Part shown: positions 625 to 12,888 of the stretch, piece after piece
Layout: each line of letters begins with the position of its first letter
Numbering within the stretch: position 1 is the stretch's first letter
Assembly (NCBI GenBank): GCA_002728035.1
Contig: PBUZ01000070.1
Span: 1 to 12,888, forward strand
Length of the DNA: 12,888 nucleotides
Source: Methanobacteriota archaeon
GTDB taxonomy: Archaea; Thermoplasmatota; Poseidoniia; Poseidoniales; Poseidoniaceae
Direction of reading: 5' to 3'
Notes under the pieces: model-generated
The model's input: the letters and a program-made list of their open reading frames with translations, nothing else
Databases searched by the model: none
Told to the model about the DNA's origin: nothing
Program-made: the position numbers and the translations under genes

Positions 625-708
625 TGCGGGGGGCAGGATTCGAACCTGCGAACCAATAAGGAATGGGACCTAAACCCACCGCCGTTGACCAAGCTGGGCG
701 ACCCCCGC
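625..708 (-). tRNA. tRNA-Leu, anticodon UAG
   Basis: The minus strand folds as a class II tRNA. The acceptor GCGGGGG (708-702) pairs with CCCCCGC (632-626). The D-arm contains GCCC/GGC with the AGCTTGG loop. The anticodon stem GTGGG/CCCAT holds the loop TTTAGGT, giving anticodon TAG, which reads CUA and possibly other CUN leucine codons. A long variable arm follows, as expected for leucine. The T-arm is GCAGG, TTCGAAT, CCTGC. Base 625 supplies an A discriminator, the usual identity base for tRNA-Leu, and the CCA end is not encoded. There is no intron. It lies 40 bases after the copper chaperone gene on the same strand; a weak TATA-like TTCAAAA near 734-740 could be its own promoter. Confidence 0.93.
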
Positions 709-748: not shown

Positions 749-961
749 TCAAGCGGTTACGCCAAATCCCGTGCTGGACACGATGGCCACGACATCATCG
801 GTCGTCAAGGCCTCCGTGGTGACGATGACGCCCGAATCCGTTTCGTGTGAAATCTTGGCAGAAACGACGCCAGGTGTTGATTCAAGCACGCGCAGAACGC
901 GACCAGAACACCCGCCGCAGGTCATGCCGGTGATGTTCAGTTCGTGGGTGACTTCGCCCAT
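749..961 (-). CDS. copZ: CopZ-like copper chaperone (HMA domain)
   Basis: This 70-residue protein is essentially one heavy-metal-associated domain. The metal-binding loop GMTCGGC supplies Cys15 and Cys18, followed by the expected helix (RVLRVLESTPGV), the strand SAKIS, and a C-terminal strand-helix-strand ending GFGVTA. Proteins of this family carry Cu(I) in the cytoplasm and hand it to the N-terminal domain or entry site of a copper ATPase. It lies 25 bases downstream of the ATPase gene on the same strand, which supports that partnership and co-transcription. The ATG at 961 was chosen because the fold begins directly after it and a purine-rich stretch (GGAAGAGAAG) lies upstream; starts at 1003 or 994 would overlap the ATPase gene and add a basic leader with no match to the fold. 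Copper specificity is inferred from the neighbour. Confidence 0.88.
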   Translation of the reverse strand: MGEVTHELNITGMTCGGCSGRVLRVLESTPGVVSAKISHETDSGVIVTTEALTTDDVVAIVSSTGFGVTA

Positions 962-986
962 GGGCTGTCTTCTCTTCCGATGCCTA

Positions 987-3269
987 TCAAACATCCCCTG
1001 CACGCAGTTTCGCTGAGGGTTGCCACCATCGCAGAACCAAGGAATTGCTGACCACGCTCACCGAAGACAAGGACATCGCTGCGGCGGCGAACGCAGGAGG
1101 CAGCAGCCAACCGGTCCACGGGAAGAGCAACCCCATGGCCAAGGGCAGACCGATGATGTTGTAGACAAACGCCCATGCGAGGTTGGTGCGGATACGGGTC
1201 ATCGTCGCTCGCCCCAGTTCGAGCGCCGCTACAGCGTCGGCCAAGTCGTTGCGCACCAGAACGATGTCAGCACTCTCCAGCGCGATTTCACTCCCAGCGC
1301 CCATGGCGATGCCGACGTTGGCGACGCTGAGTGCGGCAGCGTCGTTGATGCCGTCGCCGATCATCGCCACGACGCCGTTCTCCTGTAGGCGTTGGATGTG
1401 TTCTGCCTTTTCGTCGGGTTTAACGCCGGCGACAATGTTCGTGATACCGACTGCATCGCCAACGGATTGAGCGACTTCCTCCCTGTCTCCGGTGAGCATC
1501 ACCACATCGATGCCGGCCTGTTTGAGCCGTTTCACGGCGGCTTGGGACGTTTCCCGGATGCGGTCGCTGACCTCCAACCATCCAAGCAGGCGTTGACCTT
1601 GCACCACCAGCACCACGGTCACACCACGACGTGCGCGTTTGGCGACCTGTTCATCGAGGTCGTCGGGAAGGTCGGTGAGCAATTCATTCACGAGGTCGAG
1701 GTTGCCGACAGCCACGGCTTCGCCATCCATTGTTCCAACAAGACCCAAACCGGGGAAGGTGCGAACGTCGTCAACTGCAGGTCGGCCATAACCCATGTTC
1801 TCCCAAGCCGTGTGCACTGCACTCGCTATCGGGTGGGTTGATTCGGCCTCAAGAGAGGAGGCGAGGCACACGAGTTCCTGAACATCGCCTTCCATGAGTT
1901 CAATGTGGCTGACCCTCGGTGAACCCGCGGTGATGGTGCCCGTCTTGTCGAGCACGATGGTCGAGGTGGCATGGGCTTGTTCCAACGCTTCGATGCCTTT
2001 GATGAGCAGGCCGTACCGAGCACCGCGACCGGTTCCCACAACGAGAGCGGTTGGCGTCGCCAGACCAAGCGCACACGGACAGGCGATGACGAGGGTACTC
2101 ACCAACACCATCACGGCCATTTCGCTGGACGACATCGCGCTGTTGGGGGCGAGCGAGTCTGCCCAAAACAACCATGCGGCAGCGGCGATGAGCGCAGCCA
2201 CAACCACGACGGGGACGAACACGCCAGCGATGCGGTCGACCAAACGTTGAATCGGAGCTTTGCCCATTTGAGCCTCGTCCACCAGACGAATCACGTTCGC
2301 CAGCATGGTATCGTTCACCAGCGCCGTGGTACGGACCATCAGCGTAGCATCCATGACCACCGTTCCCGCACTTACGCTGTCGCCCTCGTGTTTTCGAACG
2401 GGAAACGACTCGCCCGTCATCATGGACTCGTCCATCAGCGCTGTGCTGTCTTCCACCAGGCCGTCCAGCGGAACCGTTTCTCCAGCCCTGACTTTGAGCA
2501 GTGTTCCTCGGGGGATTTGCTCCACGGGGGTGGCGACCGTTCCTTCTTCAACAACCACCCATGCTTCCTTTGGTTGCAGGCGCATCAAGCCGTGAACAGC
2601 GTCCGTTGCCTTGAGTTTGGCCTTGGCTTCGAGGTAATTGCCGAGCAAGACGAAGGCGATGATGAAGGCAGCACCGTCGAAAAAGACATGCTCGGCCTGG
2701 CCAACAAACGCAGGAAGAAACTCGAGTACAGGCGAGAGGGTGACGAGGGAGGACCAGGCCATCGCCACGGTGGTCCCGAGATGAACGAGCACGTCCATGT
2801 TCGCCGTTCCTTGCCGCATGGAAGTCCACGCGTGGCGATGAAATGCTGCACCGCAATAGGCGTAAACGGGCAAGGCGGTGAGCATGGCGAGGGTGAGGCG
2901 AAGGTCGAGTGAACCCAACCGCCCGAGATCATCCACCATCATCGAGAGAACAAAGACAGGAATGGCGAGGGTGAAGGCGAGGACGACTTGACGGCGTTGA
3001 GCAGCGACCTTTTCCTCGTTGTTTCGGCGAGTTTCAAGTGCGGGAACGAGTTCACCCGCTCCAAAACCAACGCCTTGAACGGCTGCAATGCACCGAGCAC
3101 GGTCGTCGTCGCCAATCGCTTCATCAAGCGTGATCACGGCTTTTTCCAGAGGCAAATTAACGCTCACGTTGGTGACGCCGCTCAGTTCCCCCAAGACCTT
3201 CTCAACCGATGCTACACAGGCCGCGCATGTCATGCCCGTGACGCTCAGCGAGAGTTGGTGTTCCTTCAC
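987..3269 (-). CDS. copA: Copper-transporting P1B-type ATPase (CopA-like)
   Basis: The 760-residue product has every hallmark of a Cu(I)-exporting ATPase. Counting from the GTG at 3269, it has an N-terminal HMA domain with GMTCAAC (Cys15, Cys18), membrane helices between about residues 95 and 225, and the actuator motif TGES near 285. A CPC membrane site (Cys397, Cys399) follows, then the phosphorylated Asp441 in DKTGT, the SxxHP histidine near 479, the GDGIND hinge near 638, and a final helix pair. CPC with an N-terminal HMA indicates monovalent copper (or silver) and export from the cytoplasm driven by ATP. An open frame extends upstream to about 3380, but that part overlaps the cysteine-rich gene in another frame and lacks domain character. 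A GAGGTGA ribosome site at 3281-3275 sits five bases before the GTG at 3269, and this decided the start. It is preceded by the Cys-rich gene and followed by copZ. Confidence 0.94.
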   Translation of the reverse strand: MKEHQLSLSVTGMTCAACVASVEKVLGELSGVTNVSVNLPLEKAVITLDEAIGDDDRARCIAAVQGVGFGAGELVPALETRRNNEEKVAAQRRQVVLAFTLAIPVFVLSMMVDDLGRLGSLDLRLTLAMLTALPVYAYCGAAFHRHAWTSMRQGTANMDVLVHLGTTVAMAWSSLVTLSPVLEFLPAFVGQAEHVFFDGAAFIIAFVLLGNYLEAKAKLKATDAVHGLMRLQPKEAWVVVEEGTVATPVEQIPRGTLLKVRAGETVPLDGLVEDSTALMDESMMTGESFPVRKHEGDSVSAGTVVMDATLMVRTTALVNDTMLANVIRLVDEAQMGKAPIQRLVDRIAGVFVPVVVVAALIAAAAWLFWADSLAPNSAMSSSEMAVMVLVSTLVIACPCALGLATPTALVVGTGRGARYGLLIKGIEALEQAHATSTIVLDKTGTITAGSPRVSHIELMEGDVQELVCLASSLEAESTHPIASAVHTAWENMGYGRPAVDDVRTFPGLGLVGTMDGEAVAVGNLDLVNELLTDLPDDLDEQVAKRARRGVTVVLVVQGQRLLGWLEVSDRIRETSQAAVKRLKQAGIDVVMLTGDREEVAQSVGDAVGITNIVAGVKPDEKAEHIQRLQENGVVAMIGDGINDAAALSVANVGIAMGAGSEIALESADIVLVRNDLADAVAALELGRATMTRIRTNLAWAFVYNIIGLPLAMGLLFPWTGWLLPPAFAAAAMSLSSVSVVSNSLVLRWWQPSAKLRAGDV

Positions 3270-3274
3270 GGCAT

Positions 3275-3281
3275 TCACCTC
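3275..3281 (-). promoter_or_regulatory. Ribosome binding site that sets the copA start
   Basis: GAGGTGA on the minus strand overlaps the TGA stop of the upstream Cys-rich gene (3282-3280) and lies five bases before the GTG at 3269. It suggests tightly coupled translation of the two genes and argues against the longer upstream frame for the ATPase. A second in-frame GTG (3278-3276) falls inside this motif and is less likely to be the start. Confidence 0.6.
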
Positions 3282-3450
3282 AGTTGGTGCAGCATTCCCC
3301 TTCTTGCCACTGCTCGTCCATGGTGACGCAACCGCAACCGCAGGTGCACAACCAACCCACGCTATCCCATCCTTTGCCACCTTCAGCGCGGGTGTAGAGG
3401 CGTTTCATCTTGCAACCGCAGGTGCACTTCTCAGCGACGATTCGGGCCAT
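3280..3450 (-). CDS. Small cysteine-rich metal-binding protein (56 aa)
   Basis: The ATG at 3450 opens a 56-residue frame ending in TGA at 3282-3280, two bases or fewer from the ATPase gene. It has nine Cys: a CTCGC cluster at residues 9-13, a second CTCGCGC cluster at 35-41, and a CC pair at 53-54. The two clusters are about 21 residues apart and are encoded by an identical 15-base repeat (3412-3426 and 3334-3348). Aromatic and Gly residues between them (RLYTR, GGKGWDSVGW) resemble the spacing of a zinc-ribbon or rubredoxin-like fold. A TATA-like box about 26 bases before the ATG fits a leaderless mRNA starting at this gene. As first gene of a copper-efflux operon it may be a copper buffer, sensor or donor. 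I do not recognise a named family, and a zinc-ribbon role unrelated to copper remains possible. Confidence 0.75.
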   Translation of the reverse strand: MARIVAEKCTCGCKMKRLYTRAEGGKGWDSVGWLCTCGCGCVTMDEQWQEGECCTN

Positions 3451-4845: not shown

Positions 4846-4852
4846 ACACCGT
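4838..4852. terminator. Hairpin spanning two convergent stop codons
   Basis: ACGGT (4838-4842) and ACCGT (4848-4852) form a five-pair stem with a five-base loop. It covers the TGA of the membrane protein gene and touches the TGA of the exoribonuclease gene, which end only six bases apart. It is symmetrical and could act in both directions, but there is no T-run, so its role in termination is uncertain. Confidence 0.3.
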
Positions 4853-7230
4853 CAAAGCGGTGCGAGGTCGAGACTGCCCGACCAAATGTCAAGGCCACGC
4901 AGCCTGCACGGGAATCGCTGACCGAGCGTGAGGACGGTGCGATGTTCACCGTTGTGGTCGGGCTCGGCCGTGACGACCTTCAATCCGTGTTCGTCAACGA
5001 CCAAGCGTTCTTTTCCACCCAATTGGCGCAGATGCATACGGCCTGAAACGGCTCCGTCATCGGCCAAGTCGAGGAAAACCCATGGGCCGCGCAGACCCAC
5101 CACTCGGGCGTTGTAGGTGATGGACGGGTCCACGTTCCCGTCGCTTGACGTCGAATCAACGGTGCTCGCCTCTTGACCCAATCGCCCGCCACGCATCAGG
5201 TGGACATGGTAGGCGTTGGCGACCAGTTCCCATTCCATCCGTTTGGCCGTCAAACTTTGTTCGCTGCAATGTTCGGCCAACCGTGCCGTTTCATCGGCGT
5301 CGTGAACCCATTCACGGCCGTGGATGAAGGCCTTCAGTTGACGATGGACCATCAGGTCGGGATAGCGGCGGATGGGTGATGTGAAGTGAACATAGGCATC
5401 CAAATTGAGGCCAAAGTGGCCACCGTTTTCTTCGCTGTAGCGAGCGCGTTGCATTAGTTGGAAGAGGCCTTGGTCAACGATGCGGCGTGTCGTTTCCGTC
5501 AGATCACTGGCAGCCGTCTGCGCCGCCTGCAGCGAGGTCAAAATCCCGTTTCGAGCATCGGGGTCGATGACGCTTGCCAAGTAGGCAGGGACATCGTCCT
5601 CGGACGTCTCTTCCGCAAGTCCAGAAAGGTCAACGCCGCCTTGACCGAGGTTGGCCCAATCGCCGAGCAAATTGGAGAGTTCCTCTGTTTCGCTTTCACC
5701 GTGCTTTCGCAGGCTTGGCATGGGCAACTGAATCAAGATGTCCATCGCCGCCATCTTGGCGTTCAATTCCTCCACTTCGGGCCGGTCTGGCGGGGCGTGA
5801 CAGCGCCAAGGAAGTGGGGCGTCTTGTGCTCCCAGAAGGTGACCGACAGCAGCATTGGTGGCGACCATGAACGACTCGATCATTCGCGTGGCCTCGTTGG
5901 GCCATTTGACCTCCACACGCAGTTCATCGTCACCGTGGAGGCGAGGGCGCAATTCCGGATTGTTGAGATTCAACCGAATCTCCCTCTCCTGCCAGGCGGC
6001 AGCAAGGGCCAACATCTCGTCGTAGTCGTTGGTGTTCAACACCGCTCCGTAGGCGATGTTGGCTTTGACATGAATCACCGCTTCGTAGGCCGAGGTGTTC
6101 ACGATGGTGTTCTCGTCGTCAAGTTCCATCGCCACGACCATTGCCAAGCGGTCCACATCAGCGCGCAGCGAACACAGGTCATCTGCGAGTTTTGGTGGAA
6201 GCATCGGCAACACGGTGTGGGGCAAGTAGACAGAAGTGGCACGAGCAGCGGCAGCACGGTCCAGCGCGGTGTCGGCTTGGACATAATGCGCCACATCGGC
6301 GATGGCAACCCAAAGGGTTCGTACGCCGCCTTCCTCCACCAAGCAGACCGCATCGTCGAAATCCTTGGCGTCGGGTGGGTCGATGGTCACAAAAGGAAGG
6401 TGACGCAAATCGGTTCGTCCTTTCGCGACTTCTTCATCCCCCTCCACTTCTCCAAGGCGGTCGGCGTACGTCACCATCGAGGCATCGTAATGACGAGGGA
6501 AGGGGTTCTTTCCTTCCCGCTTTCGAGCATCCAAACGTGCGTCAAGCAATTCGCGCAGGTTCCATTGCTGGCCGGTCATCAAGAGCAAGGCCATCGCTGG
6601 GTCGTCGGAAGGGAAGCGAAGCCCAGAACGGCGGGCGGCACAGATGCGGGCCTCTCGAATCAAGTCAAAGCGCTGAAGGGAGGTTGTTCCCCCGTCGTCC
6701 AGCGCATACGATGCCGGCAAGGCCCCGCCACAAAGGAGGGCTGCCCAGACGCGTTCGAGCAGGACGTACTTCTCCACATCCGCTTCACTGGCATTGTCCG
6801 TTGTGAGTTTTGGTCGGCCCAGCAACGGTGTATCGTCTTTCCCGCCGTGGCGACTGAAGAAATCCTTCCATAATGCTGCTGCCCCTTCCAGTCGCTCAAG
6901 GGATTCTTTGGAGCGAAATTGAATCATCTTGTCCTCTATTGGGAGGATGTAGGTGCCTTCGTTGCGTCCGTGAGCGAGGCTCTCGTTGATGGTGCTGAGC
7001 AGGGCGCGCTCGGCTTTTGGGTCGCTGCTGAATTGCTGTGCTAAACCCTCTTTTTCACCGAGCCAAGCGACGATGGATGGCCCGTCCCAAAGGCGTTGCC
7101 AATCCTCGTCGTTGAAGTGTTGTGTCACACGACGCCAGAGTCGCTCATCAGGTGGGGACTGCGGGCCTTTCTTCTGTTTCCGTTGCCGATTGGAACCACC
7201 CCCTCGACCTCGGTGCTTACGGCCCGCCAT
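4852..7230 (-). CDS. RNB-family 3'-5' exoribonuclease (RNase II/R type)
   Basis: The 792-residue protein has the RNB catalytic domain of RNase II, RNase R and Dis3. The motif IDPPDAKDFDDAV gives Asp284, Asp290, Asp292 and Asp293, with the spacing of the four metal-binding Asp of RNase II. The second hallmark, SPIRRYPDLMVHR, lies at about 618-630. The last 100 residues look like an S1-type OB domain. Such enzymes degrade RNA hydrolytically from the 3' end, releasing nucleoside monophosphates. The N-terminal 270 residues start with a basic, Gly/Arg/Lys-rich tail and then a mostly helical region; I do not see the paired cold-shock domains usual for RNase II/R. The family is common in bacteria and eukaryotes and patchy in archaea. 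It follows a DnaJ gene by 38 bases on the same strand. Whether it is RNase R-like in activity on structured RNA cannot be told. Confidence 0.9.
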   Translation of the reverse strand: MAGRKHRGRGGGSNRQRKQKKGPQSPPDERLWRRVTQHFNDEDWQRLWDGPSIVAWLGEKEGLAQQFSSDPKAERALLSTINESLAHGRNEGTYILPIEDKMIQFRSKESLERLEGAAALWKDFFSRHGGKDDTPLLGRPKLTTDNASEADVEKYVLLERVWAALLCGGALPASYALDDGGTTSLQRFDLIREARICAARRSGLRFPSDDPAMALLLMTGQQWNLRELLDARLDARKREGKNPFPRHYDASMVTYADRLGEVEGDEEVAKGRTDLRHLPFVTIDPPDAKDFDDAVCLVEEGGVRTLWVAIADVAHYVQADTALDRAAAARATSVYLPHTVLPMLPPKLADDLCSLRADVDRLAMVVAMELDDENTIVNTSAYEAVIHVKANIAYGAVLNTNDYDEMLALAAAWQEREIRLNLNNPELRPRLHGDDELRVEVKWPNEATRMIESFMVATNAAVGHLLGAQDAPLPWRCHAPPDRPEVEELNAKMAAMDILIQLPMPSLRKHGESETEELSNLLGDWANLGQGGVDLSGLAEETSEDDVPAYLASVIDPDARNGILTSLQAAQTAASDLTETTRRIVDQGLFQLMQRARYSEENGGHFGLNLDAYVHFTSPIRRYPDLMVHRQLKAFIHGREWVHDADETARLAEHCSEQSLTAKRMEWELVANAYHVHLMRGGRLGQEASTVDSTSSDGNVDPSITYNARVVGLRGPWVFLDLADDGAVSGRMHLRQLGGKERLVVDEHGLKVVTAEPDHNGEHRTVLTLGQRFPCRLRGLDIWSGSLDLAPL

Positions 7231-9156: not shown

Positions 9157-9429
9157 ATGTCTGACGAAAAGAACGCCACCAAGACCTTCGAGATGAAGGT
9201 TCAGGAGCAACAGGACAAGATTGAGGCACAGTTCCGCAAGATTACCCGTGGCTCGTGGGCCCGAATCATTCGCATGGCGCGCAAGCCGTCCAAGCAGGAA
9301 TTTCGTCAAACGGCGATTATCTGTGGCATTGGTCTCTTTGTGCTGGGTGCCATTGGGTTCGCCATCCTGGTGGTCATGGACAACTTCCTGCCCTGGTTGA
9401 TTCACGATGTCTTTGGCATCGGTAACTGA
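9157..9429 (+). CDS. secE: Preprotein translocase subunit SecE/Sec61-gamma
   Basis: The 90-residue protein has the shape of archaeal Sec61-gamma. A long charged amphipathic helix (about residues 10-50, with EQQDKIEAQF and SWARIIRMARKPSKQEF) is followed by one membrane helix (about 54-80, AIICGIGLFVLGAIGF onwards). The RMARKPSKQEF segment just before the membrane helix matches the conserved hinge of the family. The protein clamps the SecY/Sec61-alpha channel in the membrane. It is directly followed by spt5, the order found in many archaea, and that neighbour supports the call. The N-terminal 20 residues are somewhat longer than usual for archaeal versions. A TATA box and a GAGGT site precede it. 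Confidence 0.92.
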   Translation: MSDEKNATKTFEMKVQEQQDKIEAQFRKITRGSWARIIRMARKPSKQEFRQTAIICGIGLFVLGAIGFAILVVMDNFLPWLIHDVFGIGN

Positions 9430-9437: not shown

Positions 9438-9441
9438 TGTG

Positions 9442-10365
9442 ATGATGATGACGGAAGCATTCGTAGCCTTTGTTCGCCATGAAGAGAAACTGCTGTTGCT
9501 CAAGCGCAACGGTTCCGCCGAACATTTTTCCGACCTTTGGGACGGCGTTTGGGGTGTTGGAAACACGCCTGAGGAAGTCTTGGAGCGCGTCGCCCAGTCC
9601 ACCGGTATCCCCATCGATGACCTTCACTACCATGGATCAGGACCTGAGCGCGGGATCGACATGGGTCGTGACCTCGTCGATGTGATTCCCGTTCTTGTGG
9701 TGAGCAGCAGCGACGAGATTTCTCCGTCCGGCATCTACACCATCGGTGAATGGGTTGACCCCGGTAGCATCAAGGATTACAACTGCATCTTCTCCAACCT
9801 CGACATGGAAAACGCCGACGGATTGTTCCGTGAAATGTACGGCAGCGTTGGCTCTTTCCTTTACATCATCAAGACCGCCATCAACTCCGAACAGCGCGTC
9901 GCTGACGAAATGTACGCTCGCCTTCACGGCAGCGGTTCGATGGTGTCCCTGCAGGAAGAGATCATGTCCATCCTTCACCCACCGGCCATGCGCGGCTACG
10001 TGTTTGTGGAGTCCAGCGCTCAACACCACGTTGAGAAGCTCATCGGGCGCTCAGGTGGCCGAGACCCATCGGCTCGTCGTGGTATCAACCAGTCCCCTCT
10101 CAGGAACGCCAAGAGCGTGCTTCCTGGTGAAGCCCCGCTTGAGGACATTCTTCCCTACTTGGAGCCCAAGGCCGTCACCAGCGGTATCGAGGTCGGCTGC
10201 ATCGTCGAAATCGTCACGGGCGCCTTCAAGGGCGAGAAGGCTCGTATCACCAGCGTGTCCGAATCCAAGGAAGAGGTCAGCATGGAATTGTACGAGCAAA
10301 TCATCCCAATGACGCTCAACATGCGCGGTGACCACGTCCGTGTCATCGAGCGCGTTGGCGAGTGA
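9442..10365 (+). CDS. spt5: Transcription elongation factor Spt5 with an N-terminal Nudix-like domain
   Basis: The 307-residue product is about twice the length of a normal archaeal Spt5 (near 150). Residues about 139-245 form the NGN domain, with the opening FLYIIKTA, the core RGYVFVES, and the linker PGEAPLEDILPYLEPK. Residues 247-307 form the KOW domain with VEIVTGAFKGEKARI. Spt5 binds the RNA polymerase clamp with Spt4 and promotes processive elongation. The first 135 residues look like a Nudix fold: opening strand AFVAFVRHEEKLLLLKR, then GVWGVGNTPEEVLERVAQSTGI in the position of the Nudix box, and a late strand GEWVDPGSIKDY. The box is degenerate: the catalytic R-E pair reads E48-R49 and the E-E pair reads Q52-S53, so hydrolysis is unlikely. 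It lies 12 bases after secE and is probably co-transcribed. Confidence 0.9.
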   Translation: MMMTEAFVAFVRHEEKLLLLKRNGSAEHFSDLWDGVWGVGNTPEEVLERVAQSTGIPIDDLHYHGSGPERGIDMGRDLVDVIPVLVVSSSDEISPSGIYTIGEWVDPGSIKDYNCIFSNLDMENADGLFREMYGSVGSFLYIIKTAINSEQRVADEMYARLHGSGSMVSLQEEIMSILHPPAMRGYVFVESSAQHHVEKLIGRSGGRDPSARRGINQSPLRNAKSVLPGEAPLEDILPYLEPKAVTSGIEVGCIVEIVTGAFKGEKARITSVSESKEEVSMELYEQIIPMTLNMRGDHVRVIERVGE

Positions 10366-11964: not shown

Positions 11965-12888
11965 TCAAACTTTCTGCCAGTCCGTACCGTTCCACCAGCG
12001 GTTCGTACCGTCGCTCATCAGGCGCCAGGTGTGGCCGTTTTCATCCGTCCACTGGTTCTCAACGGTCGGTTCAGCAGGTGCTGGAGTCGCTTGCGGCTCT
12101 TCGAGGGCAACCAATGCGCTTTGGTCAACAGGTGCAGTCACAGCGGGTTGTGCTGCGACGGCCTCGTAGGATTGAACGGGTTGAGGCTGGTAACCAGTCG
12201 TTTCCATCGGATCCTGAGCAACGGCTGCAGGTTGCGCTTCCAAATCCGGCATGGAGAAATCCTTGGTGACCTCTGCTTCGGCTGCGATACGTCGGCGCAG
12301 GAAGAACACCACGGCAGCCGTGATGACCAGCATGGCAATGCCGCCGCCCACCAACATCTGTTGCTGTGCTGCAGCTGCCTCTTCTGCTTCCTTGGCTTCC
12401 TTTGCCTCGAGGACGGCCTGCTCGTTGTCGCCCATGCCGTCGCCATCGGAATCCATCGTTTCGTTGGCGTCGTTGGGGAAGGCGTCAGCGTTGTCGCCGA
12501 CACCGTCAGCGTCGCTGTCAGCCCATTCGGTGGAATCGTTGGGGAAGACGTCGGCGTTGGTACCGTTCGGGTTGTCGCCGTAGCCGTCGTTGTCTGCGTC
12601 AAGCCACTGGGTGGCATCGGATGGGAAGGCGTCAGCGTCGTTGCCCTGCGGGCTGTCTCCGTAGCCGTCACCGTCGCTGTCGATGCTCTGTGTACTGTCC
12701 TCAGGGAAAGCATCGGCGTTGTCGCCCACGCCGTCGTCATCGGTGTCAAGCGTTTCCGAGGCGTCGTTGGGGAAGGCGTCAGCGTTGTCGCCGACACCGT
12801 CATCGTCGCTGTCAAGCGTTTCTGTGCCGTCGTTGGGGAAGGCGTCGGCGTTGTCGCCGACACCGTCATCGTCGCTGTCGGCCGTTTC
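11965..12888 (-). CDS. Surface protein with Asp-rich Ca-binding-type repeats, C-terminal part
   Basis: The frame is open to the right edge, and 307 residues are visible. The first 155 are seven tandem repeats of the type DSDDDGVGDNADAFPND, in which the DxDxDGxGD core matches the calcium-binding loops of thrombospondin type 3 repeats. Four repeats are 22 residues; two carry a five-residue insertion (SPQGN, NPNGT). An Ala/Glu-rich helix (EAKEAKEAEEAAAA) leads into one membrane helix (about 178-197, LVGGGIAMLVITAAVVFFL), closed by RRR, so the repeats lie outside and the tail inside. The tail is Pro/Gln/Ala-rich and ends in a Trp-rich segment (GHTWRLMSDGTNRWWNGTDW) like the DUF2510 motif. It is probably a large calcium-stabilised envelope or adhesion protein; the N-terminal part with any binding domain is outside the window. 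Confidence 0.85.
   Translation of the reverse strand, partial: ETADSDDDGVGDNADAFPNDGTETLDSDDDGVGDNADAFPNDASETLDTDDDGVGDNADAFPEDSTQSIDSDGDGYGDSPQGNDADAFPSDATQWLDADNDGYGDNPNGTNADVFPNDSTEWADSDADGVGDNADAFPNDANETMDSDGDGMGDNEQAVLEAKEAKEAEEAAAAQQQMLVGGGIAMLVITAAVVFFLRRRIAAEAEVTKDFSMPDLEAQPAAVAQDPMETTGYQPQPVQSYEAVAAQPAVTAPVDQSALVALEEPQATPAPAEPTVENQWTDENGHTWRLMSDGTNRWWNGTDWQKV
12424..12888. repeat. Tandem coding repeats, 66 and 81 bases
   Basis: Units of about 66 bases follow each other from the right edge inward; the first two complete copies are nearly identical in DNA as well as protein. Inner copies are more diverged and two are 81 bases because of a 15-base insertion. The gradient suggests recent duplication toward the edge and makes copy number likely to vary and to be mis-assembled. 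Confidence 0.8.

Follow-up and report, generated by a model that had tools for sequence, protein, structure and literature searches.

The Spt5 protein of Poseidoniales, as profile comparison establishes, consists of a normal Spt5 and a predicted Nudix domain that directly precedes the NGN domain and is homologous to a stand-alone archaeal MutT-like family; that this fused Nudix domain is non-catalytic can be taken as almost certain. No elongation factor other than Spt5/NusG is reported to occur in every domain of life (PMC13289920), and archaeal Spt5 is described as NGN plus one KOW (PMC7289017). That a disabled Nudix enzyme has been fused to Spt5 throughout the order and kept under selection shows that this factor can acquire a module with a possible role in sensing or docking, and Arg22, Asp34, and Arg49 emerge as concrete residues that can be tested. 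The window—the whole stretch of 12,888 nucleotides that was analyzed—very probably comes from a Marine Group IIa archaeon since its closest named relatives are Poseidonia and Poseidoniaceae records.

The coordinates and frame originally assigned to the gene (Table 1) are correct, the translation being free of stops. The same frame is open from a GTG at position 9439 as well, and the third ATG appears to be the likeliest start because relatives mostly open with MTEAF, MSEAF, or similar. The product exceeds the curated cut-off of the archaeal Spt5 model TIGR00405 (96.7 versus 69.95 bits), contains an NGN domain (E 2.1e-10, 40.8 bits against a cut-off of 22.4) followed by a KOW motif (E 4.7e-5, 23.5 bits against a cut-off of 22.3), and is the sole TIGR00405 match in the window's assembly, which is 80.5% complete. 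A SecE-like frame adjoins Spt5 on the same strand in 79 of 80 Poseidoniaceae loci and in 22 of 23 further Poseidoniales loci—in the window, 12 bases separate the end of secE from the first Spt5 ATG—and a gene for the partner Spt4 lies elsewhere in the window's genome (PF06093 above cut-off at contig C7:1204-1380). Given the NGN and KOW domains, the sole, above-threshold TIGR00405 match, the adjoining secE, and the Spt4 gene elsewhere, this gene encodes the Spt5 of the cell, with everything up to approximately residue 136 being additional. In the features just named it resembles archaeal Spt5 as modelled by TIGR00405, from which it differs by the N-terminal Nudix residues and by a basic insertion between NGN and KOW; positions 1-142 of the model are stretched across residues 141-304. 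The insertion is well conserved in the Poseidoniaceae Spt5 alignment and shorter in the Spt5 frames read from the Thalassarchaeaceae family. Public records that carry names call such proteins "transcription elongation factor Spt5" or NusG.

Table 1. Features of the window, with residue numbers referring to the 307 aa translation
Feature	Position	Strand	Details
tRNA-Leu	625-708	-	ARAGORN
secE (SecE/Sec61-gamma), directly upstream of Spt5	9157..9429	+	Pfam SecE 3e-5; TIGR00327 8e-12
Spt5 with N-terminal Nudix-like domain	9442..10365	+	307 aa; likeliest start ATG 9448
Nudix-like domain	9448..9849	+	residues 3-136; confidently modelled core stops near residue 118
Degenerate Nudix box and preceding WDG motif	9538..9609	+	residues 33-56, WDGVWGVGNTPEEVLERVAQSTGI
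Asp34 of WDG, new and invariant in Spt5 domains	9541..9543	+	
Arg49 replacing Glu of the box RE pair	9586..9588	+	
NGN domain	9859..10044	+	residues 140-201; Pfam PF03439
Basic insertion	10051..10113	+	residues 204-224, between the Pfam NGN and KOW matches
KOW motif	10201..10284	+	residues 254-281; Pfam PF00467

That the N-terminal part is joined to Spt5 in one continuous frame, as the original prediction held, is borne out by its conservation and by dN/dS values well under 1. A protein search returned 290 relatives at E ≤ 1e-3, and in all 120 that were listed the match spans 81% or more of the query; genome contigs yielded 222 confirmed matching stretches, 80 of which were kept for analysis. 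For the extra part, dN/dS was computable in 10 of 16 window pairs, at 0.07-0.21 (the other 6 being saturated), and for NGN-KOW in 11 of 16, at 0.022-0.157; in the five pairs least diverged at synonymous sites, two of them including the window, the ranges are 0.014-0.132 and 0.007-0.045, respectively, all these values being subject to synonymous sites close to saturation in many pairs. The extra part is a selected protein under looser constraint than NGN-KOW and evolves faster, with a dN that is two- to fivefold higher; the N-domains in an alignment of 18 Poseidoniales sequences (A2) are 36-63% identical to that of the window. An artefact of gene calling, with the real start near residue 135 and the upstream frame open by chance, has a vanishingly small probability and, as coding noise, is refuted. 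An in-frame Met at residue 132 could act as an internal start, but all 120 proteins listed among the 290 conserve the upstream part as an open frame, its dN/dS is low, it gives a coherent predicted fold and is homologous to Nudix proteins, and in four of the 80 genome-contig loci (L031, L038, L040, and L042) the domain's Met directly follows a stop; a chance open frame or late start was rejected on these grounds.

Structure prediction returned the Nudix fold that had been read from motifs. In the AlphaFold model of the domain block, pLDDT is 71-96 over the first 110 residues of the domain, and it is 57-96 over the same residues in the full-length model, where almost every residue from 118 to 247 scores below 50; because the NGN-KOW part is modelled so poorly, the placement of the Nudix domain relative to NGN is unreadable from the full-length model. 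Foldseek and VIA both match the predicted domain to Nudix structures, among them the Nudix domain of NrtR (3gz8), and by fold it belongs to the Nudix homology clan. MUTYH chains are also found among the Foldseek matches (ranks 15, 24, 30, and 34). The C-terminal domain of MutY is a non-hydrolysing Nudix fold in a DNA-bound protein, although it differs from the Spt5 domain in being C-terminal in a glycosylase. In a similar manner, the Spt5 domain might touch upstream DNA or the non-template strand by NGN and either steady the bubble or sense damaged bases. DNA contact of this kind is improbable, for the MutY chains rank below MutT-type chains in Foldseek and none occurs in the best 50 VIA rows, which does not exclude MutY matches.

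Homology to the Nudix clan is also evident from sequence profiles: A2, built from the 18 Poseidoniales Spt5 N-domains, aligns with A4, a profile of nine aligned stand-alone Nudix relatives, over 115 columns (hhalign 99.1%, E 1.8e-18 as a single-comparison value). One A4 member scores E 6.3e-16 with Pfam NUDIX, which matches 10 of the 18 A2 members at E ≤ 1 (best 4.8e-4). At E ≤ 1, neither Pfam nor NCBIfam recognizes the domain of the window itself, and a Pfam NUDIX search of its genome returned eight other places without the Spt5 N-domain; the A2 profile recovers the domain from the same genome at contig 70:9448-9849. Searches of PDB sequences gave unrelated matches only when phmmer was used with the window's domain (all E ≥ 0.23) and, with A2, Nudix chains together with SspE (all at E ≥ 0.08). 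Among proteins of approximately 75-240 aa, the best 120 of 121 A2 matches yielded no outside relative; the named or annotated ones are mostly Spt5 pieces of Poseidoniales, and two have a precomputed PF00293.

The LLLLKR and W anchors are common to the Spt5 N-domains and the stand-alone relatives, whose nine A4 members share five invariant glutamates, four of them in the box and one later. Read against this family with its intact box, the decay of the Nudix box postulated for the window is legible and is fixed across the order, and the residues originally quoted (E48-R49, Q52-S53, and WVDPGSIKDY) are present as described. Residues were counted in 344 domains obtained by hmmsearch at E 1e-8 with no motif filter, of which 302 are distinct (218 proteins and 84 loci); proteins and loci overlap in origin and are mostly from Poseidoniaceae, so the counts do not represent independent events. 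The glutamate of the RE pair, present in all nine stand-alone relatives, is replaced by Arg in 286 of 290 domains (K in two, C in one, and L in one, with 12 of the 302 gapped). The first glutamate of the EE pair is kept in 221 of 291 relatives and is Gln (Q52) in the window, the second is present in 0 of 290, and the later glutamate is kept in 0 of 262, with Arg in 139. None of the 302 distinct sequences retains all three box glutamates together. The earlier box glutamate is mostly Asp (162 of 204, with Glu in 7) in a gappy column of an earlier, motif-filtered set; this set (249 passing, 204 distinct) had been selected for W.G, for MYG, and for part of the start motif, R12 included, and the conservation of these elements within it is therefore not evidence. 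At position 34, where the stand-alone relatives have A (8 of 9) or S (1 of 9), Asp is found in all 287 Spt5 domains that are not gapped at this position (15 of the 302 are). Arg22, the usual Nudix arginine following the LLLL strand (Arg23 of MutT), is retained in 287 of 287.

The Nudix hydrolase box GX5EX7REUXEEXGU with its metal-binding glutamates is thus absent, and the alignments demonstrate that the predicted metal site has been dismantled through loss of the RE glutamate, the last EE glutamate, and the later glutamate, by MutT numbering three of the four metal ligands. Because of these losses, and judging from what is known of the family, hydrolysis by the usual metal-dependent mechanism is very unlikely anywhere in the order, and an ordinary active Nudix hydrolase was rejected as a candidate since both box and later glutamates are lost. 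The domain might still be an enzyme that hydrolyses or isomerises a substrate at a metal site of unusual make-up, as a type 1 IPP isomerase does, for instance. IPP isomerase models provide the best NCBIfam matches among the relatives (TIGR02150 in 10 of 18, best 1.6e-4; PRK03759 in 6 of 18, best 1.3e-4), and one source names match P0180 isopentenyldiphosphate isomerase. An enzymatic role of this sort is nonetheless highly improbable: the isomerase matches are weak—the best E is 1.3e-4, and the curated cut-off of PRK03759 is 127 bits—and are absent for the window's own domain, which thus falls short of the cut-off for a type 1 IPP isomerase, no sequence combines the three box glutamates, and the later glutamate is lost in 262 of 262.

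A homologue search finds the same Nudix-NGN-KOW architecture throughout the order. The profile survey, with A2 for Nudix and TIGR00405 for Spt5, covered 389 Thermoplasmatota genomes, including 72 of the window's family and 55 of the other family of the same order, which is Thalassarchaeaceae going by the name of one match (P0148). Spt5 was found in 63 and 54 of these, respectively, and the Nudix profile matches 115 of the 117 Spt5-bearing Poseidoniales genomes, a count that rests on profile matches, 20 full-length fusion frames having been read individually. Both exceptions are fragments, one (G133) matching from base 5 of its contig with residues 170-305 only and the other (G200) showing just the final 48 residues, where its locus ends. 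Two further genomes have the Nudix part without a TIGR00405 match, owing to a contig-end cut in G121 and to a split into two pieces in G139, and eight genomes of the order match neither profile. The A2-matched open frames of the order are at least 288 aa long except in G197:C252 (162), G121 (157), G326 (239), and G139 (112 and 74). Except for G139, where one gene is in two pieces, and G197, where the domain occurs on two contigs, each matched Poseidoniales genome has a single A2 match; no second, stand-alone A2 match was detected in the Poseidoniales genomes surveyed, and the eight Nudix genes of the window's genome give no A2 match at E < 1.

Outside Poseidoniales, A2 matches occur in 110 genomes (E 1.5e-17 to 9.8e-4). 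The 15 such places that were read all hold Nudix frames, which from stop to stop measure 133-140 aa in seven cases and 165-379 aa in eight, and none is fused to Spt5. This stand-alone MutT-like family of other Thermoplasmatota (approximately 133-140 aa, WAGVSGYxE) is, despite its homology, unlike the Spt5 domain both in its intact box, as seen in the nine aligned members, and in being unfused in the 15 places read. In a tree of 39 rows—19 sampled Spt5 domains, 15 stand-alone ones, and five of the eight other Nudix genes of the window's genome—all 19 Spt5 domains lie on one side of a branch that has a support of 100/100, their stem measuring 2.86 changes per column, although the bootstrap had not settled and long branches meet in the tree. 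The tree can be read as one origin followed by fast change, and together with the distribution it suggests a single capture of the domain, no later than the common ancestor of the two families. In four longer frames (L154, L158, L159, and L163), relatives of the stand-alone family are placed behind other sequence, which in the two that were scanned, L159 and L163, is Pfam AcnX_swivel_put (5.5e-25 and 4.8e-29), a hint of a connection with the archaeal mevalonate pathway.

Spt5 proteins elsewhere in the phylum look different. In the other family of the class that was sampled, Spt5 is present in seven of seven genomes; the five sequences read have a short acidic start without a Nudix domain, and no A2 match was obtained in the remaining two genomes (G095 and G170). 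Two genomes of this family (G003 and G332) possess a stand-alone Nudix on a separate contig. A further 32 Spt5 frames were read outside the class, namely the 30 best-scoring ones, which are not a random sample, and two more; a Nudix domain is found in 0 of the 37 frames read outside the order. The assertion that archaeal Spt5 normally has nothing beyond NGN and KOW needs restriction, as it fails for part of this phylum: by eye, a different N-terminal domain of approximately 130 aa is carried by 13 of the 32 (L088, L089, L091, L092, L093, L095, L096, L097, L100, L107, L110, L117, and L118). The Pfam matches of the nine that were scanned are weak, several of them Ig-like, with FixG_C at 4.2e-4 in three and NPCBM_assoc at 1.8e-3 in two. 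It therefore seems that, within the phylum, Spt5 acquired an N-terminal domain on two or more occasions, the domains being unrelated, and the two cases together suggest that the Spt5 N-terminus is a site of repeated domain gain in Thermoplasmatota.

MYGSV is invariant in the 23 Poseidoniaceae rows of alignment A1, and MYG(S/D)V or a close variant in the Poseidoniales frames read leads straight into NGN. Since this conserved stretch runs directly into NGN, the Nudix domain probably sits close to it. Its preferred function, at a little under an even chance, is that of a non-hydrolysing module binding a phosphate-bearing ligand. Held near NGN on the RNA polymerase clamp, the domain could bind a nucleotide, an RNA 5′ end, or a nucleic acid backbone, and the fixed Arg49, at a former metal-holding position, could hold phosphate without metal together with the retained Arg22. 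Such a module would be analogous to the inactive Nudix domains used by CFIm25 and DBC1. Inactive Nudix domains elsewhere are reported to bind small molecules, RNA, or proteins (PMC5389931; PMC3695940), and non-catalytic ones typically occur in multidomain proteins, where they bind small molecules or other domains (PMC5389931). As described in PMC3695940, human CFIm25 lacks two glutamates and hydrolase activity and still binds nucleotides, while an Entamoeba protein of this type has Lys at three of the glutamates. CFIm25/NUDT21, which functions in mRNA 3′ end processing, shares with the Spt5 domain a Nudix fold without catalytic glutamates, action on transcripts, and, in the Entamoeba protein, the exchange of Glu for a basic residue (PMC3695940); unlike the Spt5 domain, it is a subunit of its own, eukaryotic, and a binder of UGUA-type motifs. 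DBC1 and NrtR similarly feature non-catalytic or regulatory Nudix domains within larger proteins (PMC5389931), but neither is an elongation factor, NrtR being a DNA-binding regulator of NAD metabolism.

Alternatively, the domain may be a pure docking scaffold, the Nudix surface of which would contact Spt4, the polymerase clamp, or a partner such as the ribosome or a processing factor, with a ligand-free pocket closed by Asp34 and Arg49. This is a substantial possibility, albeit clearly short of an even chance. It accommodates the uniform loss of the metal ligands, the direct junction of Nudix and NGN through MYGSV or MYG(S/D)V, suggestive of rigid packing, and the fixation of both Asp34 and Arg49, which may simply form a buried salt bridge plugging the old site; a docking surface would also be expected to evolve faster than NGN-KOW. 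Protein-protein contacts are, moreover, served by non-catalytic Nudix domains (PMC5389931). The invariance of Arg22 speaks against pure docking, though this residue may be structural, and ligand binding is preferred because Arg49 occupies a former metal-binding Glu position. Counting against the binding reading, the site is not wholly rebuilt, as the first EE glutamate is mostly kept. It is unlikely that Spt5 acts here as a ligand-sensing elongation factor, in which the metal-free pocket would bind a nucleotide signal or the nascent RNA 5′ end and thereby alter the clamping of the polymerase by Spt4/5. If true, elongation would follow cell state, and a whole order of abundant marine archaea would harbor a transcription sensor in its only universal elongation factor.

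Spt5 domains, including those of about 40 archaeal proteomes, were surveyed in PMC13289920, the main text of which does not contain the word "nudix". No description of a fusion of Spt5/NusG and Nudix was found in CC-licensed PMC literature, mostly judged by title and the opening of the abstract. While Nudix and Spt5 are known kinds, their combination, its order-wide spread, and the near-uniform exchange of Glu for Arg appear undescribed in that literature.

Several other genes of the window, all on the minus strand, can be recognized by their motifs. At 987-3380, a large P-type ATPase that contains DKTGT and, near its N-terminus, the metal-binding motif GMTCAAC adjoins a separate small protein with GMTCGGC (749-1003), and the pair (749-3380) reads as copper transport and chaperone. 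A frame of 792 aa (4852-7230) reads as an exoribonuclease of the RNase II/R type. At the far end, a frame with DSDGDGVGDNADAFPND-type repeats and a C-terminal membrane stretch (11965-12888), which continues past the window edge, has the look of a calcium-binding surface protein.
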